Part shown: piece by piece, positions 3,003 through 26,416 of the stretch
Layout: each line of letters starts with the position of its first letter
How positions within the stretch are numbered: position 1 is the stretch's first letter
Source of the DNA: a virus
Reading direction: 5' to 3' (one strand)
Length of the DNA: 27,943 nucleotides
IMG/VR virus record: IMGVR_UViG_3300038549_000090
Location: 1 to 27,943 of that record
Notes under the pieces: generated by a model
What the model was told of the DNA's origin: nothing
What the model saw: only the letters and a program-made list of their open reading frames with translations
The model's database searches: none
Program-made: the position numbers and the translations under genes

Positions 3003-3362
3003 ATGCGCAAGATCCCGGTTGTTGTGATGTGGTTTCTGCTTTCGGCTCTGATTTCGGCTTGCGAACGCGACCCGCTCACGGATCCGGCGCTGCACGATCT
3101 CGTGGACTGCGATCCGGCGTGGGGCCAGTTCACCGATCCCGGCCGGTGCGAGATCGCGTGCGCGGCCCCGCCGCCCGGATACCACCGGGATCCCGAGCTC
3201 GTCCCGTTCTGCGACGGGACGCTCGTCGACGGATACCGCCGCGAGTTCTGCACCAGCGCGACGCGCGCGGTCGTCGACGGCGTCGAGGGATGCTGCGTAC
3301 CGATCTCGGAGGGGGGCGTGATCAACGTCCACTTCGCGGTGTGCACCGATTACACGCCCTGA
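3003..3362 (+). CDS. Small Cys-rich lipoprotein, inserted against the structural operon (moron)
   Basis: The 119-residue product starts with a short basic N-terminus, a hydrophobic stretch and LISAC, a plausible lipobox with the lipidated Cys at residue 20. Eight more Cys follow (including CEIAC and a CC pair in EGCCVP), enough for four disulfides, so an exported envelope protein is likely. I do not recognise a named family. The gene is on the plus strand inside a minus-strand tail operon. It starts 47 bases from the divergent hub gene, and its TGA is two bases from the convergent distal-tail gene stop. Its signal-peptide segment is visibly richer in A/T than the neighbours. A role in lysogenic conversion or surface exclusion is a guess from position and export signal. 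The gene at 19974-20333 has the same length and layout. Confidence 0.75.
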   Translation: MRKIPVVVMWFLLSALISACERDPLTDPALHDLVDCDPAWGQFTDPGRCEIACAAPPPGYHRDPELVPFCDGTLVDGYRREFCTSATRAVVDGVEGCCVPISEGGVINVHFAVCTDYTP

Positions 3363-8862: not shown

Positions 8863-11800
8863 TCAGCGCCCCGTCAGCCGACCGCGCAGCGCGGGCGCGT
8901 GACGTCGGAGCGAGTTGAGGACGTAGGTTTCCGACGAGGATTCCATGAACGCGCGCATCCGCGACTCGTCGGAGACGTTGACGATCCGCAACGAGACCGG
9001 CGCACCGCCGCCGTCGCCGCCGCCCGCGGGGGAGCGTCCGCCGCGCGGCTCGACGGTGACCCGCTCGCCGGCGGACGCGCGGAACGCGACGACGTTGCGA
9101 TCGATCCCCGGCGCGCCGCCGACCATCCACGACCCGCCGTGCGCGAACGCCGGCAGGTCGAAGATCGTGTTCACCGCCGCGATCCCGCTCGCGATCCCCT
9201 CGCCGCCGCCACCACCACCGCCCTTGAGCGCGCCGAGCAGCAGGTTCACGCCCTCGCGGAACATGAGGCGCGTCAGGTCCGCGATCATCGCGTCGATCAT
9301 CTTCCGCCACGACGTCTCGGCGCCCGTCGCCATCGCAACGAACGCATCCTCGATCGACCCGATCGCGTTGCTGACGACTCCGGCGAGTCCGTCGCTCGCG
9401 CGCGTCACCTCGTCGAGCATCGCTGCGAAGCTGCCCTTCTGCGCCTGCGTCTTCTCGTTCGCGCTCGCGAGCTCCTGCTTGAGCCGCGCGACCTCGGCCG
9501 TGTACTCGGCGGCGGTGAGGCGTCCGTCCGCGTGGAGCCGGTACACGGTCTGGAGTCCGCGCGCGTAGTCGTAGAGCGGCGCGCGCACCTCCTCGAGCAC
9601 CTTGCGCTCGGCGTCGGCCTGCTTGGCCGCGGCGGTCTCGCGCACCAGCGCGGCGACGTTCTCGTCGGTGATCCGCGCGCCCGCGGTCGCCAGCGCGTTG
9701 CGCGCTTCGATCGCGGCGAGCTCGCGCTGGCGCTCCGTTGCGTTGAGCCGCGTGGCGTCGATCTCGGCACGCTTCGCCTCGATCAGGCGGTACAGCGCGT
9801 CGGTCTCGGCGAGGTACTTCACCTCGATCCCGCTCGTCGGCGCGACGGCGGTCGGCGTGTTGCCCACGGCCGCCGCGGGCTCGGCGTCGTAGCCGATCGC
9901 GAGATCCTGGCCACCCATCCGGCGCGGCCCGACGAGCCCCGCGCCGCGGGGCAGCTCGCCGGTGCGGGTCGGCACGGCCGCCGCGGCCTTCGCGAGCTGC
10001 TCCGCGTACTGCTGCGCGTCGATCTTCCCGGCGCGGAACAGCGCGTTGAGCTGCCCGACGGTGATCGAGTACGTGAGCAGCGGATCGCGAAGCTGCTTGA
10101 GCACGTCGACGGTGGGCAGCGACGAGTCGGCGAGCGCCCGCATCTGCTCGGCGAAGAACTTCGCGGTGATGCCGCCGTCCTTGAGCTGCGCCTTGAGATC
10201 CGCGATCGCATCGGCGCGGTGCGCGAGCTCGGTGCGGTTCTTCACCGCGAGGTCGCCGCCGACCTTGTCGGCGTACTGCGCCTCGATCTTCAAATCGCGG
10301 AGCTGCCGCTGCGCCTCGACCTCGGCGCGCGTCGGCGGGTCGAGCCAGACTCCGCGTGCGCCTCGCGCCTTCGCGACCGCGGCTTCCAGCGCGGCGATCT
10401 GATCGGCCATGGCCAGGGGACCGGTCGGCTTGCCGAGCTTGCCGAGCTGCTCGAGGTACTCGCGCACCGTAAGGTCGCCGTGCTTCATCGCGCGCGTCAG
10501 ATCGTCGACGGCATCACGCCGCTCGTACTCCTCCTTGCGCACGCGCACGACGACGGCGCCGTAGTCACGATCCGAGTTCGCCTTCTCGAGCTGCACGTCG
10601 CGCAGCGCGCGCTCGGCGTTCAGTTCGAGGCGCGAGCGCTCGATGCGCGCCGCCGCGTCGCCGCCGGCCTGACGCCAGACGAGCGCGCGCATCGCCGCCG
10701 CATCGCGGATCACGGTCGTCGCCTCGCGCTCGCGAACGTTGAGCTTCGTGATCGCCTCCTCGTTCTCGTCGATCATGCCGCGCCATCCGCGCGCAGCCTC
10801 GGCGCCGCGCCGCGCGGCCTCCTCGAACTTCTTTGCGGCGCGGTCCGCGTTGATCTTCTCGATGGCGGTCTGGAGCTGCCCCGTCTGATCGACCCACCCC
10901 TCGAAGCGCTTGCCGACGTCGAACCCGACGCTGTCGAGAATCGCGTTGCGCGTCTGGAAGCCGGCGAGGTACTGCTGCTGATCGAACTTCGGCAGTTCGA
11001 TCCCCGCCTCCGCGGCGAACCGCGCCGTCTCCTGGAGCTTGGCGATCCGCTCCTGCTCGTCGGCGACGCGCTTCGCCGCGAGGTACCGCGCGGCGTCGAA
11101 CCTCGTCCACGAGTAGCCGAGCCCCTCGTTGATCGCCTTGAGCTCGCTCATCTCGGCGGCGAGCTTGGATGCCTTCTCGGGATCGAACGTCGCCTCGGCC
11201 TGCGCCTGCATCGCGCGCAACTGCGACGTCAGATCCGTCGCGCCGTCCTCGACGTCACCGATCGCTTTCGCCATCAACAACGACGACGACGTGAACATCC
11301 CGCTGTCGCGCGCGTACTCGCCGATCGCGGTGCCCGCGTCGGCGAGCCACCCGAGCGCGTCCTTGAGCAAGCCGAGCGGGTTGGTGATGTAAAGGATCGC
11401 CTCGCCGAGAGGACCCAGGGCCTCGCGCAGACCGTCGGACAGCACGCGCGCCGCATCGAACGCGTGCCCGACGAACTCGAGCGCGAACGAGAGCGTGTCG
11501 AGAGCCATGCCGATCGTTTTGAACAGCCCCGTCGACTCGAACAGCTTTCCGATCGCGACGGTGATCTGGTCCTTGAGCATCGTCCATTGCTGGCCGAGCG
11601 TCGGCACCGTCTTCGCGAAGTCGCGATCGATCGAGGCGCCCATCTTCTGAAACGCACCGACGACGACGCTCGCCGTCAGCTTGCCCTCCGAGGACATCTC
11701 GCGCAGCTTGCCGCGCGTGACGCCGAGGGCCTGCGTGAGCACCTGCGCGACGTAGGGCAGGTTCTCCATGATCGATCGGAACTCGTCGCCCTGCAGCCGC

Positions 11801-12804
11801 CCCGACGAGAGCGCCTGCCCAAGCTGCATCACACCCGCGCTCGCCTCGCTCGCGCTCGGGCCGCTGAGCTGCACCGACTTGTTCACACGCGTCGTCAGCG
11901 CGTCGAGCTCGGCGGAGCTCAGGCTCATTTCGCGCGTCGCGGCGCGGAAGCGAACGTAGGCGCTCGTCGTGGCCTCGACGGAGGAGCGGGTCGCGGTCGC
12001 GATGTCGCGCATCCGACCGAACGTCGCCGACACGCTCTCGCCTTCGCTCGCGACGGCGCGGAGCTTGTTCTGCATCTCCTGGTAGGCGTTGGCGGCGTCG
12101 AGCACCTCGCGCGCGCCGTACGCCGCCGCGGCGCTCAGCAGCGCACCCTTGCCCGCGGCGAGCAGGTTCATGCCGCCGCCGCCACCACCGCCACCACCGC
12201 CCGCGGGACCTCCCTTGCTGCGCGCGAGCTCGGAGCTGAGCTTCGACGCCTGCGCGCGGTACTCCTCGAGCGTGATCGCGCCGCGACGTGCGAGGCTGTT
12301 GAGCGTCTCGAGGTCGGCGGTGAAGCGCTGCGTGGGACCGCGGATCGCCTCGAGCATCGCCTGCTCGCGCTGGATCGCGGCCGCGACGCCCTCGAACGCG
12401 AGCCCGGCGCGGCCGAGCCCGCTGACGAGGCGCCCGTGCTCCGTCGCGGCGCCGGCGGCGTTGCCCCAGAGGACCGCGAGCGCGCTCGCGCCGCGGAACG
12501 ACGCCGCGGCGACCTGCCCGAGCGTGTCGGCGGTGTAGCGGCCCACGGTGCCGAAGCGCTCGAGCCCCGTGGCCCCGCGCGACGCGGCGCCGGAAGCCCT
12601 GGCGAGCGCGTCGAGCGCGACGGTCGCGCGATTCGCGTCCGAGGCGAAGCGCCCGAGCGCGTCGCGGCCCCGCGTCGCGCCGAGTTCGATCCCGCTGCCG
12701 ACCCGGGCGCCCGCGGTCTCGGCGGCCTCGAGCTTGCCGACGAGGCGCTCGACGCCCGTCTCGGCGCTGCGCGTGTCGCCCGTGATCCTGATCGTGAAGC
12801 TCAT
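8863..12804 (-). CDS. Tail tape measure protein
   Basis: The 1313-residue, mostly helical protein sets tail length and is threaded through the tail tube. Residues 230-410 carry the tape-measure N-terminal domain signature (VMQLGQALSSGRLQGDEF at 325-342, SIMENLPYVAQVLTQALG at 344-361). A ten-Gly run lies at 202-211 before a hydrophobic helix, and another Gly run at about 1195-1201. The C-terminus (FAHGGSWMVGGAPGIDRNVV, then SAGERVTV) is the usual tape measure tail end. Five helical 'GxITxxEYxxQ' motifs recur between residues 172 and 1108. At about 0.15 nm per residue, a known rule of thumb, the tail would be near 200 nm. The ATG overlaps the stop of the upstream chaperone frame (ATGA), with GAGGAGGA as ribosome site. 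Confidence 0.93.
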   Translation of the reverse strand: MSFTIRITGDTRSAETGVERLVGKLEAAETAGARVGSGIELGATRGRDALGRFASDANRATVALDALARASGAASRGATGLERFGTVGRYTADTLGQVAAASFRGASALAVLWGNAAGAATEHGRLVSGLGRAGLAFEGVAAAIQREQAMLEAIRGPTQRFTADLETLNSLARRGAITLEEYRAQASKLSSELARSKGGPAGGGGGGGGGGMNLLAAGKGALLSAAAAYGAREVLDAANAYQEMQNKLRAVASEGESVSATFGRMRDIATATRSSVEATTSAYVRFRAATREMSLSSAELDALTTRVNKSVQLSGPSASEASAGVMQLGQALSSGRLQGDEFRSIMENLPYVAQVLTQALGVTRGKLREMSSEGKLTASVVVGAFQKMGASIDRDFAKTVPTLGQQWTMLKDQITVAIGKLFESTGLFKTIGMALDTLSFALEFVGHAFDAARVLSDGLREALGPLGEAILYITNPLGLLKDALGWLADAGTAIGEYARDSGMFTSSSLLMAKAIGDVEDGATDLTSQLRAMQAQAEATFDPEKASKLAAEMSELKAINEGLGYSWTRFDAARYLAAKRVADEQERIAKLQETARFAAEAGIELPKFDQQQYLAGFQTRNAILDSVGFDVGKRFEGWVDQTGQLQTAIEKINADRAAKKFEEAARRGAEAARGWRGMIDENEEAITKLNVREREATTVIRDAAAMRALVWRQAGGDAAARIERSRLELNAERALRDVQLEKANSDRDYGAVVVRVRKEEYERRDAVDDLTRAMKHGDLTVREYLEQLGKLGKPTGPLAMADQIAALEAAVAKARGARGVWLDPPTRAEVEAQRQLRDLKIEAQYADKVGGDLAVKNRTELAHRADAIADLKAQLKDGGITAKFFAEQMRALADSSLPTVDVLKQLRDPLLTYSITVGQLNALFRAGKIDAQQYAEQLAKAAAAVPTRTGELPRGAGLVGPRRMGGQDLAIGYDAEPAAAVGNTPTAVAPTSGIEVKYLAETDALYRLIEAKRAEIDATRLNATERQRELAAIEARNALATAGARITDENVAALVRETAAAKQADAERKVLEEVRAPLYDYARGLQTVYRLHADGRLTAAEYTAEVARLKQELASANEKTQAQKGSFAAMLDEVTRASDGLAGVVSNAIGSIEDAFVAMATGAETSWRKMIDAMIADLTRLMFREGVNLLLGALKGGGGGGGEGIASGIAAVNTIFDLPAFAHGGSWMVGGAPGIDRNVVAFRASAGERVTVEPRGGRSPAGGGDGGGAPVSLRIVNVSDESRMRAFMESSSETYVLNSLRRHAPALRGRLTGR

Positions 12805-13690
12805 CGACGTCCTCCTCGTGCGGGCTGCGGCGCGCGCCGCGGCTTACTCGCGGCCTCCGACTTCCGCGTCGCCTCGGCGTGCTCGGCGTCGTCGACGCTG
12901 CGGATCACGTCGATCAGGATCGCGCGCGCGTCGTCGTCCAGATCCGCGCGCGCGTGGTGCTCCACCCACGCGACGATCGCGGTCCATGGGATCTTGCCGA
13001 CGACCATGCCGACGGGCCGGCAGGTGTCGAGATCGTTGAGCGCGCGGATCGCGAGCTCGAGCACGACGCCCGCGAACGGCCCGAGGCGCGGCTCCTCGGC
13101 GAGGATCGCGCGCTGTTCCGCGGTCGGCGGTCGGCCCTTGCGCGCGCCCTCCTCGATCGATCGCCGCACCACCACAGCGCGACGCTGCCACACGATCCAG
13201 GAGGCTACGCTTTTCCCAGCGCGGCTCCGTCGGCGGCGCCACCGGCCGGCGGTGCGCTCGTCGTCGCGTCGGCGAAGTTCGCCGGATCGGCGATCCAGCG
13301 CCGGAACTCGTCGGCCAGGTCGGTGCGCTGCTCGTGCAGCGCGAGCAGCAGCTCGGCGACCGCGGCCGGCACGCACGCCGCAGGCTCGTGATCGCCGTCG
13401 TGGTAGACGTGCTCCCACCGCACGACGCTCGTCTCCGCGATCGTCCGCAGCGTCTCGCGCTCGGCGGTGAGCGCGTAGTCGACCTGGCGATCGGGACCGA
13501 TCGCGGCGAGGTCGGAGCCGAACTCCGTCGCGAGCCGCGCGCTCGTGCGCAGCGACGCGGCGCGCACGCCGCTCGTCGAGGCGCCGAAGTGCCGACACCA
13601 CAGCACCGGCGGCGTGTGGCCGTCGGGGTGGAACGAGATGCCGTGGAACGTGAACGGCCGGGCCGGCCGCGGAGCGATCGTGAACGCCAT
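12801..13690 (-). CDS. Tail assembly chaperone G-T fusion made by -1 frameshift
   Basis: Translation starts at the ATG at 13690, slips back one base at GGGAAAA (13211-13217) and continues in the -1 frame as SVASWIVWQRRAVVVRRSIE and onward to a stop at 12801. This gives about 296 residues. The downstream frame encodes a compact helical domain of about 135 residues (EEPRLGPFAGVVLELAIRAL, then a Lys/Arg-rich tail) and has no good start of its own close to the junction. In lambda-like phages the G and G-T proteins bind tape measure and tube proteins during tail assembly, and the gene pair lies just before the tape measure gene, as here. The stop overlaps the tape measure ATG. The frame arrangement is seen directly; its use is inferred. 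Confidence 0.75.
13205..13690 (-). CDS. Tail assembly chaperone, G-like (unshifted product)
   Basis: The 161-residue product begins MAFTIAPRPARPFTFHGISF and ends LGKA before TAG at 13205. The N-terminus is beta-rich and the middle (FRRWIADPANFAD) helical, with an Ala/Gly-rich end where the slippery site lies. It sits between the tail tube and tape measure genes, the position of lambda gpG. The ATG at 13690 is chosen over the upstream TTG at 13777 because promoter boxes lie at the usual distance from it (second box ending 7 bases before ATG). No Shine-Dalgarno is visible. Sequence similarity to lambda G itself is not obvious, so the call rests on position and frameshift arrangement. Confidence 0.75.
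   Translation of the reverse strand: MAFTIAPRPARPFTFHGISFHPDGHTPPVLWCRHFGASTSGVRAASLRTSARLATEFGSDLAAIGPDRQVDYALTAERETLRTIAETSVVRWEHVYHDGDHEPAACVPAAVAELLLALHEQRTDLADEFRRWIADPANFADATTSAPPAGGAADGAALGKA
13211..13217 (-). promoter_or_regulatory. Programmed -1 ribosomal frameshift site GGGAAAA
   Basis: In the zero frame the codons read CTG GGA AAA GCG TAG, so the heptamer is G GGA AAA, a canonical X XXY YYZ slippery sequence. A GGAG seven bases upstream could act as the internal ribosome-binding stimulator known for bacterial -1 sites. The zero frame stops one codon after the AAA GCG pair, while the -1 frame stays open to the tape measure start. Confidence 0.8.
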
Positions 13691-13816: not shown

Positions 13817-15316
13817 TCAGTTCGCGGGGAGGTACGCGAACTGCGTCAGCCCGGCCTCGTAGCCGTACGTCTCGTCGGCCGCGGCCTCGGTGGACAGCGC
13901 GATCTTGACGTTCGTGTTCTCGCCGGCGTCGAGCGCGCCGTCGCGCAGCTTGAACGCGGGCATATCGAACAGCAGCACCGCGCCGGTCTCCGAGCTGAGC
14001 GCGACATCGAACGCGCTCGTTGCGTTGTTGCGGATCGCCGCGAGCGGCTTCTCGTCGGTGAAGACCACGGTGGCCTCGAGGTCGGCCATGAACTTTCCGA
14101 ACACGAGCCGCGCCGCGCCGCGCGTGCCCTGCTGCGTCTGCGGCTGCACGTTGTTCGTGATCGTCAGGGTCCAGTCGATCACGTCCGTCGAGATGCCGGT
14201 CTCGTCGGCGTAGTTCGCGATCCGCAGGCGCCGCACCTGATCGGACGTCGGCATGATCGCCGCGCGCTTCGCGGCGCTCGCCGTGCTGGGCCCCGTCGCG
14301 CGCGACGTCGACGGCGCCGAGATGTCGGCGCCGACGAACTCGCACTGCACGGTCACCTTGTCCTGATCCGCGGCGCTGATCGTCGCGGTGTTCAGCGCGC
14401 AGCCGGTGGCCATCGTGTAGAGCGTCGACGACCCGGGGCGCACCTGCGCGAGCTCGAGCGAGTAGGTGCGCTCGAGGTAGTCGGCGCTGATCGACGGCAC
14501 GTGCCGACAGAACGCGCCGAAAAAGATCTGGATCGTCTTGCCCGTGCCCGTGTCGGCGGTCCACGCCTGCGAGCGCCGATCGACGGTGAGCAGGTTCGCG
14601 GCGACGGAGGTGACGCGCGCGAAGCCGCGATCCGCGGCCGTCGCGAAGCCGAGCGCGCCGGGCGACGCGGCCGTGCCGCCGCCGAGCCAGATCCACGATC
14701 CGACCGTGAGCCCGAGCGTCGTGAAGTTCAGCGTCGTCGATCCCAGGTTGCCGCCGGCGTTGACCACGATGTCGGCGGCGCCGCCCTGGACGCCGACGAC
14801 GTAGAGCGCGGCGCCCGCCGGCGGCGACGCCTCGGCGGTGAGCCCCGTGGTCTTGATCTCGGTCGTGGTGCTCGTTCCCGCGAGCACCTTGAGGCCGTTG
14901 TTCGCCGCCGTGGCGAAGCCGTCCGCCCACACGAGCAGCCCGTTGGCCAGATCGCCGCTGGCGGCGACGGTGTATCCCGTCGACGTGACGGCGCTCGGCG
15001 TGTACTTCCACAACTTGCCGCCGGGCGCCTTGAGCGCGCTCGCGAAGATCGAGGGCGCGTGCCGCTCCGTGAAGTACAGCGACAGATCGCTCGTGAACGA
15101 CGGCGACGCCTCGAGCCCCACGATCGCGCCGAGGCGACGCGCGCGGCGAGGCGAGATCGGGTTGGCCGCGACGCTCGACAGGCTCGCGGTCATGCCGTCG
15201 AGCCCACCCTGATTCGGAAGCTCCTCGCTCCAGCCGCTCGTCGGGCTCACGCCGGCGGTGGCCTCGACGACGCTCGAGAGCCCCAGAGACTCGGTGTTGA
15301 CGGCAGCGCTGAACAT
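13817..15316 (-). CDS. Major tail tube protein
   Basis: The 499-residue product has the layout of tail tube proteins of the Phage_TTP_2-like kind. The N-terminus (LGLSSVVEATAGVSPTSGW, residues 11-29) matches the usual 'GxxxExTxGVxPxxG' start. A beta-rich core follows, with YLERTYSLEL near 276 and LTITNNVQPQTQQGTRG near 386-402, and the end reads ETYGYEAGLTQFAYLPAN. The protein is longer than most tube subunits. The extra length (about residues 100-250, Gly/Ala/Thr-rich beta segments such as TLGLTVGSWIWLGGGTA) suggests an inserted domain that could decorate the tube. It lies between the tail terminator and the tail chaperone genes, the expected place. The ATG at 15316 has promoter boxes but no Shine-Dalgarno. 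Confidence 0.85.
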   Translation of the reverse strand: MFSAAVNTESLGLSSVVEATAGVSPTSGWSEELPNQGGLDGMTASLSSVAANPISPRRARRLGAIVGLEASPSFTSDLSLYFTERHAPSIFASALKAPGGKLWKYTPSAVTSTGYTVAASGDLANGLLVWADGFATAANNGLKVLAGTSTTTEIKTTGLTAEASPPAGAALYVVGVQGGAADIVVNAGGNLGSTTLNFTTLGLTVGSWIWLGGGTAASPGALGFATAADRGFARVTSVAANLLTVDRRSQAWTADTGTGKTIQIFFGAFCRHVPSISADYLERTYSLELAQVRPGSSTLYTMATGCALNTATISAADQDKVTVQCEFVGADISAPSTSRATGPSTASAAKRAAIMPTSDQVRRLRIANYADETGISTDVIDWTLTITNNVQPQTQQGTRGAARLVFGKFMADLEATVVFTDEKPLAAIRNNATSAFDVALSSETGAVLLFDMPAFKLRDGALDAGENTNVKIALSTEAAADETYGYEAGLTQFAYLPAN

Positions 15317-15368: not shown

Positions 15369-15794
15369 CTACGCGCGATCCTCGAACCAGAACGGCACCG
15401 TCACGGCGCGGATCGCCCACGCGTCGCGGCGACCCGGCGCGCTCGAGCTCGCGCGCAGGTGCACGGCCCCGCCCGCGGCGGGGAGCAGCGTCCGCAGCTC
15501 GAGCACGGCGCGCGCGTGCCCTGCGAGCACCAGGAGCGCCGCGTCGCCCTCGCCGAGCGCCCTGAACAGCGTCACGACGACCACGCCGGTGCAGGTCACG
15601 CGGCGGCTGCCCGCGGGGCCGAGCGTCGCGAGCTGGCGCTGGATCGGCCCCGTGGCGACGTGCGCCCAGCTCGCCGCGGACTCGGGCGGCGCGTAGATCT
15701 CGCCCCCGAACGCGTACGGCACGGCGGGGGCGAGCGTCGGCCACGTCGTGCGCCAGCGGTCCGCGATCGCCTCGACGGCGTCGGCCTCGGTCAC
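15369..15794 (-). CDS. Tail terminator protein (DUF4128 / gpU-like)
   Basis: The 141-residue product starts at a GTG that overlaps the upstream stop by four bases (GTGA). The N-terminal helix (TEADAVEAIADRWRTTWPTL) followed by alternating strands (SRRVTCTGVVVVTLFRALGE, AVLELRTLLPA) fits small tail terminator proteins that cap the tube at the neck. The end (AIRAVTVPFWFEDRA) is the usual final strand. Its place between the gp10-like neck gene and the tail tube supports the role. The family assignment is by pattern, not by search. Confidence 0.72.
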   Translation of the reverse strand: MTEADAVEAIADRWRTTWPTLAPAVPYAFGGEIYAPPESAASWAHVATGPIQRQLATLGPAGSRRVTCTGVVVVTLFRALGEGDAALLVLAGHARAVLELRTLLPAAGGAVHLRASSSAPGRRDAWAIRAVTVPFWFEDRA

Positions 15795-16192
15795 AGCACG
15801 ACCTCGCGCACGGCCACCGCGGCCGCGACCGTGGCGATCGCGGCGTCGGCGGCGTCCTCGAGGAAGTTCGCCGGAGCCTGCGGGCTGTGCCCGCGATTCA
15901 GGCGCGCGACGTAGCGCACGTGGTTGGTCACGTACGCGTCGGCCGTCGCGTCCGCGCTCGCGATCAGCGTGGCGGCGCCCACCGCCTTTGCGGCCTCCGC
16001 GCTGCCGACGTCGTCGCCGTCCTGCACCGGCGCGGGCGCGCTGAGCGACGGGATCGTGTTGGCGCGCGCCCACCCGGTGTCGACCGGCATGCGCTCGTCG
16101 ATGTTCGCGGCGATCTCGAGCGCGAGCGCGTTGCGCACGCGCGCGAACTCGCGGCCGAGCCGCGCGCGAAGCTGATCGCCCTGGCTGCTCAC
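15791..16192 (-). CDS. HK97 gp10-like neck / head-tail protein
   Basis: The 133-residue product carries the signature of the family: an N-terminal helix (RLGREFARVRNALALEIA), then IDERMPVDTGWARANTIPS, and later YVTNHVRYVARLNRGHS with a PANFLEDA end. These proteins act at the head-tail interface, and the 'PVDTGxxRxS' and 'Y....EfG' motifs are typical. The GTG at 16192 is preferred over a TTG at 16228 because promoter boxes (TTGACC, 17 bases, GACCGT) end 7 bases before it; the gap of 35 bases after the previous gene plus these boxes leaves no other ribosome site. The next gene overlaps by GTGA. Confidence 0.8.
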   Translation of the reverse strand: MSSQGDQLRARLGREFARVRNALALEIAANIDERMPVDTGWARANTIPSLSAPAPVQDGDDVGSAEAAKAVGAATLIASADATADAYVTNHVRYVARLNRGHSPQAPANFLEDAADAAIATVAAAVAVREVVL

Positions 16193-16199
16193 GCGCTCG

Positions 16200-16228
16200 A
16201 CGGTCGGTCGGCGCGGAGCGGCGGTCAA
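16200..16228 (-). promoter_or_regulatory. Putative leaderless promoter before the gp10-like gene
   Basis: TTGACC (16223-16228), the best match to the classic -35 sequence, then 17 bases starting GCCGCT, then GACCGT (16200-16205), then seven bases to GTG at 16192. Confidence 0.58.
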
Positions 16229-16230
16229 GG

Positions 16231-16455
16231 TCAGCGGCGCTTGCCGGCCCGCGCGGTCGCGGTGGTCGTGGGCAGCGTGTCGATCTGACAGGCCACCCAG
16301 AGCTGCAGGAGGTCGTACTCGGACAGCCCGCACTCGCGCCACGGGACCACATCGCCGCGCACGAGCTTGTGCGGGCCGACGGGCAGCGCCTCGCACGCGA
16401 CGACCACGCGCGCGCCGGCGTCGAACGGAGCGCGCGCGGCGCCGCTCGGGGTCAC
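16231..16455 (-). CDS. Small head/neck-region protein, unknown
   Basis: The 74-residue product starts at a GTG that overlaps the capsid gene stop (GTGA), so it is coupled to capsid translation. It has a beta-like N-terminal half (ARVVVACEALPVGPHKLVRG), an acidic helical middle (CGLSEYDLLQLWVAC) and a basic end (ARAGKRR). I do not recognise a family. Position between capsid and neck genes suggests a head completion or connector accessory part. Confidence 0.6.
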   Translation of the reverse strand: MTPSGAARAPFDAGARVVVACEALPVGPHKLVRGDVVPWRECGLSEYDLLQLWVACQIDTLPTTTATARAGKRR

Positions 16456-19973: not shown

Positions 19974-20333
19974 ATGCGTTCCCTCCTCGCGATCACGATC
20001 CTTCTCGTCGTCTCCTCCGTCGCCGTCGCGCTGCCGCCCGGCGAGGGCGACCCCGAGCCGTGCGACTACGACGACGGGTGCGGCTCGCCCGGCGACGCCG
20101 ACGAGCTCCCCGACGCGCCGCCGCCGAGCTGCTTCACGCCGATCCTGTGGACGCAGGACTGCGCGCACTGGGGGATCCCGCAGCCAGAGATCGCCTGCTA
20201 CCTCGACGGTCCGTACGCGTGCTGCCACACCGCCTTCGGCTACCTCGAGTGCATCGAGCTGCACGACGATCGCTACGACGAGCCGCTCTGCCCCGGGCTG
20301 CCGGGTCGCCCGTTCTGGCCCTGCACGCCGTAG
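19974..20333 (+). CDS. Small Cys-rich secreted protein, inserted against the structural operon (moron)
   Basis: The 119-residue product has a Sec-type signal peptide (MRSLLAITILLVVSSVAVA, with cleavage likely after AVA at residue 19). The mature part is acidic, rich in Pro, and has ten Cys, including a CC pair (YACCHT). No lipobox is visible. I do not recognise a named family. The gene starts 71 bases from the divergent protease-scaffold gene, and its TAG lies two bases from the convergent MuF-like gene stop. Length, orientation and end spacing are the same as for the lipoprotein gene at 3003-3362. An exported product that alters the host envelope during lysogeny is a possible role, but only from context. 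Confidence 0.72.
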   Translation: MRSLLAITILLVVSSVAVALPPGEGDPEPCDYDDGCGSPGDADELPDAPPPSCFTPILWTQDCAHWGIPQPEIACYLDGPYACCHTAFGYLECIELHDDRYDEPLCPGLPGRPFWPCTP

Positions 20334-23843: not shown

Positions 23844-25721
23844 TCAGCCGAGGCCCGGCAGCCGCGGCTCGTCCAGATCCGACCGGGCCGCGGCGTCGGC
23901 GTTGATGTCGGGCCCCACGACGATCGCGCCGAGCGTGCCGGGATCGTCGACGCGATCGGCGATGCACGCCGCGAAGGCGCGGGTGATCGCATCCACGAGA
24001 TCGTCGTGCTTGCCAAACGGAAAGTCGACGAGCTCGGCGCGCGCGAGCTCCCAGCCCGGATGCGCGACGATCACGAAGTTGCCGTGCTCGGCCTGCGCCG
24101 CCAAGGGGTCGGCGCGCGCCTGCTTGCTTTGCGTCTCGGCCGAGCTCGTCACGTAGCGGCCGACCGCGAGCTCGCCGACGACGTAGGACGCGAACAGCCG
24201 GCCCGTAGCGCCCGGATCTCGCGGGATCGACCAGTGGAGCGACGGGGGATCCTCGGCGTGGCGCCGACGCACGAACGCGTCCACGGCACCAGGACCGCCC
24301 CGCATCGCGTGCGTGTCCCAGAGGAAGAACTTCCGCGTCGTCGGCGAGCGCGCAACGCGCGCATCGGCGGTGCGGTCCGCGGTGGCACCCTCCCCGCTTG
24401 CCCAATCCCAGCCGCGGTGCCCGAGCGGAACGTCGGCCGGCACCTCGTGCGGTTGGATCACGGGCAGCCACTCGAGCAGGAACTTCGACCCGGTGCCGAC
24501 CTTCGGCGACTGCTCGAGCTGCGCGAGGATCGCGTCGCTGCCGCCGAGCTCGAGCATCTGCGCCTCGAGCCGCGCGAGCGACTCGGCGTCGTAGCGCACC
24601 GGATCGGCAAGCTCGCCCGGCGTCGTGCGCCAGTCCTGATAGCCGATCCTCGACGGGCGCCAGGTCGGCAGGCGCCGCACCGGGTGCGCGTCTCCCTGGT
24701 AGCGCATCTCGATCAGCAGCACCTCGTAGTCAAGCGCGGGGTTGCGCAAGACGATCGCGCTGAGGTCGTGCGGATGCACGCGCTGCATGATCCCGATCGT
24801 CGCGCTCCGCACGACGGGGCGCTGATCGTCAGGATCCGGATCGAGCCCCGTGCCGTGCGCCGCCCTCACCCAGAACGGGACGCTGATCTCGGCCAGCCCG
24901 CCTCCGGCGTTGCGGACGCGCGTCGGCAGGGCCATCGCGAACCAGCGCTGCGCCTCCAGGAGCTTCGCCGAGGCGTCGGACCCGTACGCGTCGCGCACGT
25001 TGTGCGGGTCGTCCCAGATCAGGCGATCGGCGCGGAAGCCGGTGGACGCACCGCCGATCGACGACGAGCGCCGCCAACCTCCCTTGTTGTTCGCGTAGTA
25101 CGTCTTGGAGTCCGACGACTCGTCGAGCTGGAAACGATCGCCCCAGAAGCGTTGATAGAGCTCGGAGCGGATCACCTTGCGGCACTTCTCGTTCGCCTCC
25201 TCGGTGAGCTGCGCGCTGTAGCTCCACGTCATGTACCGGAGGTCGGGACGGTTCCGCGGCCCCCACTCCCACGCCGGGAAGAACACGCACGTCAGGTACG
25301 TTTTCGTCGATCCTGGGGGAACGTTCCCGAGGAAGTTCTGGATCCGGTCGTGGTGGATCGCCTCGAGGTGGAGCGCGATCGCCTCCTGCACCTTGCCGCG
25401 GGAGAACGGTGTGCCCGGATCGATCACGCCCCAGAACAGCTCGACGAAGTCGAGCAGGCTCGCCTCGGCGCGTGCCTTCGCGTCGCGGAGGTTCGTGCGC
25501 TGCGGTGACCCGAGCAGCAGCCGGAGCGCACCGAGCACGTCGCGGTGCAGCGCCACGAGCTCGAGCGCGGTGCCCGTGGCGAGCTCGAGCGCGGCGGTGG
25601 GTGCTGCAAGCGCGGCGGCGCGGGGCGAGAGCGCGGTGCCGGTGCCCGCGGCCAGCGCGGCGACGGTGAGCAGCAGGAGCGCCGAGGAGGCGCGGCGCGC
25701 TTCGCGGATCGTAGGACTCAT
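23844..25721 (-). CDS. terL: Terminase large subunit
   Basis: The 625-residue DNA-packaging motor has an ATPase and a nuclease domain. Walker A is NVPPGSTKT (residues 133-141), Walker B DRLIWDDP (232-239), and a coupling motif GIMQRVHPHDL lies at 310-320. The nuclease domain has RGWDWASGEG (436-445) and KHDDLVDAITRAF (571-583) with acidic residues for metal binding. An Ala-rich hydrophobic N-terminal extension of about 60 residues (SALLLLTVAALAAG at 13-26) precedes the usual start of the fold (LLDFVELFWGVIDPGTPF at 89-106). The ATG overlaps the small terminase stop (ATGA). The 'C-terminal domain, TIGR01630-like' type is the best match by eye. Confidence 0.92.
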   Translation of the reverse strand: MSPTIREARRASSALLLLTVAALAAGTGTALSPRAAALAAPTAALELATGTALELVALHRDVLGALRLLLGSPQRTNLRDAKARAEASLLDFVELFWGVIDPGTPFSRGKVQEAIALHLEAIHHDRIQNFLGNVPPGSTKTYLTCVFFPAWEWGPRNRPDLRYMTWSYSAQLTEEANEKCRKVIRSELYQRFWGDRFQLDESSDSKTYYANNKGGWRRSSSIGGASTGFRADRLIWDDPHNVRDAYGSDASAKLLEAQRWFAMALPTRVRNAGGGLAEISVPFWVRAAHGTGLDPDPDDQRPVVRSATIGIMQRVHPHDLSAIVLRNPALDYEVLLIEMRYQGDAHPVRRLPTWRPSRIGYQDWRTTPGELADPVRYDAESLARLEAQMLELGGSDAILAQLEQSPKVGTGSKFLLEWLPVIQPHEVPADVPLGHRGWDWASGEGATADRTADARVARSPTTRKFFLWDTHAMRGGPGAVDAFVRRRHAEDPPSLHWSIPRDPGATGRLFASYVVGELAVGRYVTSSAETQSKQARADPLAAQAEHGNFVIVAHPGWELARAELVDFPFGKHDDLVDAITRAFAACIADRVDDPGTLGAIVVGPDINADAAARSDLDEPRLPGLG

Positions 25722-26416
25722 GGCGGGGGCGTCGTCTCCTTCTTTCGACGGCGGCGCGGTGGCGGCGCCTCGTCCACGACCGCCTCAGGCTTCGGCTTGC
25801 GCGGTCGGTACTTCACTTTTTTCGGCGGCGCGTCGGCCGGCGGGTCCTCGTCGCGCTCGGTCTCGTCGGCGGCGTCGGGTTCGTCGCTCGGTGCCGGCAG
25901 CATCCCGGCGACGCGCGCGCGCTCGAGCTGCTCCGTGACGATCGCGAGCGCGGCCCGCCCGGCGTCATCGAGCACGCCGATCAGCGCGTCGATGCGCACG
26001 TCGATCTGACCCACGACCGCGATCCCGCCGCTCACCTCGAGCTTCGCGGCGGGGTAGAGCCCCTCGAGGCGGTGCTTGCGATCGAGCGCGAAGTTGGCCG
26101 CCTGGAGCTCGCCCGCAGCATCGGCGCGGCGCTCACGGCGCTCCCACTCCGCGACGGCGCGGCGGCGCCGCAGCTCGCGCTCCTCGGCGCGCATGTCCGA
26201 GAGCAGCGTCCAGGCGTGGCGCGCGTCGTGGTAGCTGGAGCGGCGCCCCACGCCGAACGTCTCGCGGATCTTGCGCGTGAGGTTGCTCGGATCGAGGAGG
26301 TCCTCCGCGTCGACCAGCTTCGGATCGCACAGCCAGTCGACGATCCGCTCGACGCGCGCCATCACCTTGCTGTGGCGCAGGCAGTCGCCGGGCTTGCGAT
26401 CGTAGCGACGCACCAT
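25718..26416 (-). CDS. Probable terminase small subunit / DNA-recognition protein
   Basis: The 232-residue product has a basic, helical N-terminal half (RHSKVMARVERIVDWLCD; NLTRKIRETFGVGRRSSYHDARH) that could form a helix-turn-helix, then a charged coiled part (RAEERELRRRRAVAEWERRE) and a KHRLEGLYPAAKLEVSG block like that found in small terminases. The last 65 residues are disordered, acidic then Lys/Arg/Pro-rich. Small terminases bind the packaging site and deliver it to the large subunit. The gene lies just before terL with an ATGA overlap. Its ATG overlaps the previous stop (TGATG) after a strong GAGGAGGAG ribosome site. Sequence alone is weak evidence; position is strong. Confidence 0.68.
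   Translation of the reverse strand: MVRRYDRKPGDCLRHSKVMARVERIVDWLCDPKLVDAEDLLDPSNLTRKIRETFGVGRRSSYHDARHAWTLLSDMRAEERELRRRRAVAEWERRERRADAAGELQAANFALDRKHRLEGLYPAAKLEVSGGIAVVGQIDVRIDALIGVLDDAGRAALAIVTEQLERARVAGMLPAPSDEPDAADETERDEDPPADAPPKKVKYRPRKPKPEAVVDEAPPPRRRRKKETTPPP

Follow-up and report, generated by a model that had tools for sequence, protein, structure and literature searches.

The tail gene region of the virus analysed here contains two overlapping reading frames, located between the genes for the tail tube and the tape-measure protein, with the second in the -1 frame relative to the first. How these two frames are expressed is the question raised by this locus. The whole stretch of DNA that was analysed, referred to as the window, is 27,943 bases long and has a GC content of 72.5%. 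An earlier note, made from the letters alone, took the two frames as parts of one tail chaperone gene that is decoded by programmed frameshifting after the plan of lambda G and G-T. The frameshift in the lambda G/GT chaperone has conserved counterparts in double-stranded DNA phages (Xu, Hendrix and Duda 2004, in the part reviewed in PMC5009743). In lambda, mostly G and a small share of GT are made, and the ratio governs tail assembly (PMC5009743). In the list given in PMC5313236, the frameshifted chaperones confirmed by experiment are those of lambda, P2, L5, TM4, phiC31, HK022 and HK97. The upstream frame of the window is designated G and the downstream frame T, and the features of the locus are collected in Table 1.

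Table 1. Features of the G-T locus and its neighbours in the window
Feature	Position	Strand	Remarks
G-like ORF (0 frame), major tail assembly chaperone	13205..13690 (ATG 13690, TAG 13207-13205)	-	161 aa; profile of relatives' G, HK97 chaperone 2ob9
Slippery heptamer G GGA AAA (GGGAAAA)	13211..13217	-	only GGGAAA in the window, both strands counted; aligns with GGGAAAC/AAAAAAC of relatives
Shine-Dalgarno-like GGAG, 7 nt upstream of heptamer	13225..13228	-	family-wide enrichment of GAGG/GGAG at that spacing
Predicted stem-loop, beginning 6 nt after heptamer	13148..13204	-	-33.6 kcal/mol; family-wide structure at that place
T-like -1 frame from slip site	12801..13217	-	138 aa (GK SVASWIVW...); PF23812, phrog_3817, profile of relatives' T, GC3 switch
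Tape-measure protein	8863..12804	-	1313 aa; ATG overlapping T stop (ATGA), GAGGAGG ahead; domain matches
Tail tube protein, upstream neighbour	13817..15316	-	domain matches

The sequence CTG GGA AAA GCG TAG, on which the earlier note was based, was found at positions 13219-13205 of the minus strand, at the 3' end of the 161-aa ORF, and the interval 13205-13217 given in that note extends from the heptamer through the stop codon. The heptamer is in the phase X XXY YYZ and lies one codon ahead of the TAG. When the codons of the G gene itself were shuffled, an in-frame XXXAAAZ within the last five codons appeared in 0.015% of the trials. From the slip site, the -1 frame reads GGG AAA AGC GTA GCC TCC TGG and stays open for 136 sense codons past AAA, close to the 135 or so estimated before, until TGA at 12803-12801, which overlaps the tape-measure ATG at 12804. 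When GC content was computed by codon phase, the GC3 peak followed the 0 frame until about 13211 and the -1 frame thereafter, indicating that the coding truly shifts frame at the slip site.

Both products are supported as tail assembly chaperones, T by a library family and G by the family profile and the predicted fold. The T protein matched phrog_3817 (tail chaperonin) with an E-value of 3e-10 and gave 62 bits against a profile of the T proteins of relatives; its score against PF23812 (Phage_TAC_18) was 20.9 bits (E 4e-4), under the curated cut-off of 27 bits, and the T proteins of relatives gave 40-81 bits against the same model. For the G protein alone, no family was matched in searches of the domain and family libraries. 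Against a profile of the upstream ORFs of relatives, G gave 21 bits, the best of 200 shuffled sequences giving 1.7 bits, and these upstream ORFs match the tail assembly chaperones phrog_313 and phrog_8233, the latter being one profile that covers both G and T. The joined G-T sequence gave an E-value of 0.065 against phrog_8233, with no decisive gain in score. The AlphaFold model of G (mean pLDDT 81) matched viral tail assembly chaperones in BFVD, including a protein of phage Loki (E 8e-4). Against PDB, no significant match of G was detected by sequence or by Foldseek; in a second look at 118 PDB chains, the HK97 chaperone 2ob9 came first with a Z-score of 5.8, which is below 8, followed by 4.4 for the next row, and the alignment covered 97 of 107 residues with an rmsd of 4.2. 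The T structure gave no significant match by Foldseek.

Close relatives of the G, T and tape-measure proteins of the window were not found by single-sequence search of viral_contigs, and the G protein query against the phage collection gave nothing. Relatives were obtained only by scanning with an alignment of four T sequences, which yielded 70 loci, 64 of them viral and 6 from genomes, chosen by similarity of the T domain alone, the heptamer not being a criterion. An in-phase XXXAAAN heptamer occupied the same place in 66 of the 70 relatives, with 0-8 codons between it and the stop of the upstream frame. These heptamers are chiefly GGGAAAC or AAAAAAC, some with runs of six A; at the last position most of the family has C, and the A of the window heptamer is unusual. 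The earlier note had named conservation in related phages as a check, and relatives with the heptamer lost, both frames kept and a new start gained as the refuting case. Such a case was sought among the 70 relatives, and the four exceptions turned out to carry other slippery motifs, with no evident new start. Three of them (L048, L056 and L072) have an in-phase GGGGGAA and one (L005) an in-phase GGAAAAA at the same place, and the possibility that these four loci without XXXYYYZ are losses of the slip site was rejected. GGGGGAA, the 'fivetwo' motif, is common among the annotated frameshifts of phages (PMC10885494), and GGAAAAA is assigned here, by the name of the motif only, to the 'twofive' motif of the same study. 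As examples of turnover of the slippery motif, the positions are 2369 in L048, 2363 in L056, 1370 in L072 and 2501 in L005. The heptamer stands directly at the stop codon in RcRudolph (GGGAAAC), Sulfitobacter M39 (GGGAAAC) and Shewanella S0112 (AAAAAAC), and the same arrangement was observed in BcepGomr, in the Pseudomonas phages 73, Yazdi-M and NP1, and in Stenotrophomonas AXL_3. The joined product is annotated in the records of RcRudolph and RcSimone-Hastad. The lambda plan proposed for the window is thus supported by the chaperone homology of both halves, by the conserved site and by the annotated joined genes.

T might instead be a separate protein made from its own start, either GTG at 13193 or the run of GTG at 13175-13169, and this initiation might or might not be coupled to termination at the TAG. 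GTG codons are indeed present near the 5' end of the T frame, and some public records list the T of relatives as an independent ORF that has a start of its own. In the first part of the window T frame, the only candidates are GTG codons (13193, 13175, 13172, 13169 and 13064), none of which has a Shine-Dalgarno-like sequence ahead of it, in contrast to the tape-measure ATG with GAGGAGG; the description of T as having no good start was therefore a fair one. The T frame was scanned in 54 dereplicated loci including the window, starting at its preceding stop and ending 15 codons short of the conserved GxGPIPW core, and in 13 of these loci no ATG, GTG or TTG was present. Eight of the 13 have that stop 3-5 codons away from the heptamer. 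In these 13 loci, therefore, separate initiation of T from those codons is excluded. Together with the retention of the heptamer in the 66 relatives, this makes an own start for T very improbable, and programmed frameshifting is preferred.

Alternatively, one gene that was originally continuous could have been broken into two frames, either artificially, by an indel from sequencing or assembly, or by a genuine mutation that inactivated it; the window is a single contig. The same break, however, is found at the same place and with a slippery site in all 70 relatives, and GC3 periodicity is strong in both frames. Because the arrangement is conserved, this explanation is refuted for practical purposes, its probability being close to nil.

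The two elements that flank the heptamer were analysed across the family. In 40 of 50 dereplicated loci, one of the tetramers GAGG, GGAG, AGGA or AGGG was present 5-12 nt upstream of the heptamer, compared with 24.9 expected from shuffling synonymous codons within the same gene (400 rounds; maximum 32). Because the 50 loci are related, the family counts, here and for the downstream structure, are not fully independent. The peak was at seven nt (32 observed, 18.2 expected), which is exactly the spacing of the window GGAG pointed out in the earlier note. Taken alone, the window GGAG is weakly significant, with a chance of about 10% under the synonymous expectation.

For the 60 nt just downstream of the slip site, the fold was more stable than in synonymous shuffles, with a mean z-score of -1.82 and 31 of 50 loci below -1.64, while every other offset tested in T or G gave a mean z between -0.2 and -0.7. 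The hairpin predicted six bases downstream of the window heptamer, which was absent from the earlier note, gave a z-score of -2.5, with 1 of 200 dinucleotide shuffles equally stable; against synonymous shuffles it was weakly significant, 7 of 100 being equally stable. The 141-nt fold around the window site is unexceptional (z 0.16), so that the claim of a hairpin leans on the fold of the shorter stretch together with the test across the family. At the family level, both stimulators exceed the synonymous-codon expectation, which is evidence of selection for them. Since the GGAG and the hairpin of the window are each weak alone, the stimulators of the window itself are plausible rather than proven.

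Slippage by RNA polymerase on the A run, instead of by the ribosome, deserves hardly any credence: some relatives have A6 runs, but the run is only four in the window and three in the GGGAAAC of many relatives, runs of three or four A are too short for efficient polymerase slippage, and the conserved upstream Shine-Dalgarno-like element and downstream RNA structure fit ribosomal slippage.

Programmed -1 ribosomal frameshifting of the lambda G/GT kind is thus the highly probable mode of expression of this locus. Most ribosomes would terminate at the TAG to give the 161-aa G, while a minority would be held by the GGAG seven bases upstream and the hairpin six bases downstream. On these ribosomes the Gly and Lys tRNAs would slip from GGA AAA to GGG AAA, and translation would continue through AGC GTA GCC to give a G-T fusion of 296 aa. 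By analogy with lambda, G may coat the tape-measure protein and the T part may recruit tail-tube subunits, in which case the G:GT ratio would set tail assembly. For this phage, we infer the slippage itself, its efficiency, the action of the GGAG and the hairpin, and the role in assembly. The annotation of the locus is accordingly corrected: what would read as a chaperone with an orphan frame behind it becomes G and a G-T product.

The frameshift is very probably real, yet ordinary, being the known lambda G/GT plan that is already annotated in related phages. The window resembles lambda in the position of the site between tail tube and tape measure, in the -1 direction, in the heptamer kind of slip, in the short G and long GT products, and in a T that is out of frame without an evident start. 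It differs in the heptamer, which is GGGAAAA in the window and GGGAAAG in lambda, and in its T, which appears to belong to Phage_TAC_18/phrog_3817, a group that presumably does not include lambda T. GGGAAAG is among the most efficient heptamers in E. coli (PMC5009743, PMC4066793). The Rhodobacter phages RcRudolph and RcSimone-Hastad (joined CDS OP009285, MW677525) share with the window a homologous T (31% for RcRudolph), the same arrangement and, in RcRudolph, a GAGG upstream; the fusion is annotated in both. Their heptamer, directly at the stop, is GGGAAAC instead of GGGAAAA, and in RcRudolph T and the tape measure are separated by an additional minor tail gene, which the window lacks. The same frameshift has been proposed for gp12/gp13 of Acinetobacter phage Loki, on the basis of an AAAAAAC located at the stop (PMC5313236). 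The Loki protein matched by the G model in BFVD is a 262-aa putative tail assembly chaperone; unlike the window, Loki has the AAAAAAC motif and an HK97 gp10-like gene between the chaperones and the tape measure. What sets the window apart is small: GGGAAAA in place of GGGAAAC, and a T that is followed directly by the tape measure. The trick is common to most long-tailed phages, in which its wide conservation was already known, and to every relative recovered here; the window is a further example, divergent and high in GC.

A modest extra is the statistical evidence that the TAC_18 clade keeps an upstream Shine-Dalgarno-like element and a downstream RNA structure. A three-part signal is defined by an upstream Shine-Dalgarno-like element, a heptamer and a hairpin that begins 4-10 nt downstream (PMC4066793). 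The -1 signals of IS911/IS3 and dnaX are likewise built from a Shine-Dalgarno-like element (GGAG in IS911), a heptamer and a hairpin, but they belong to other genes and products, and the stimulators of the window are predicted ones. It appears reasonably likely that the TAC_18 chaperone clade carries the full signal, with the Shine-Dalgarno-like element at a fixed seven-base spacing, the heptamer and a downstream structure that is under selection at synonymous sites, in phages that diverge strongly in sequence and in GC content, and that the heptamer can turn over to GGGGGAA or GGAAAAA with the arrangement kept. If this is true, the clade would represent a natural experiment on the tuning of the G:GT ratio.

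Several minor observations were made on the window and its relatives. In several relatives a gene of the Neck1/tail-completion type sits between T and the tape measure; in the window, T and the tape measure overlap directly (12801-12804), and the gene for a Neck1-like protein is located upstream, at 15791-16396 (minus strand). The ATG of the G ORF at 13690 (minus strand) is without a Shine-Dalgarno-like sequence (gcgatcgtcgtcgccATG), in contrast to the tape-measure start (gaggaggacgtcgATG), and the true start of G may be elsewhere, or unusual. Two small, cysteine-rich ORFs of 119 aa each, 3003-3362 and 19974-20333, are located on the plus strand, the structural genes being on the other. Both have signal-peptide or lipoprotein-like starts; neither matches a Pfam family, and the two do not match each other. 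The only A6 run of the window is at 25822 (minus strand), in GCCGAAAAAAGTG, inside the ORF 25718-26416.
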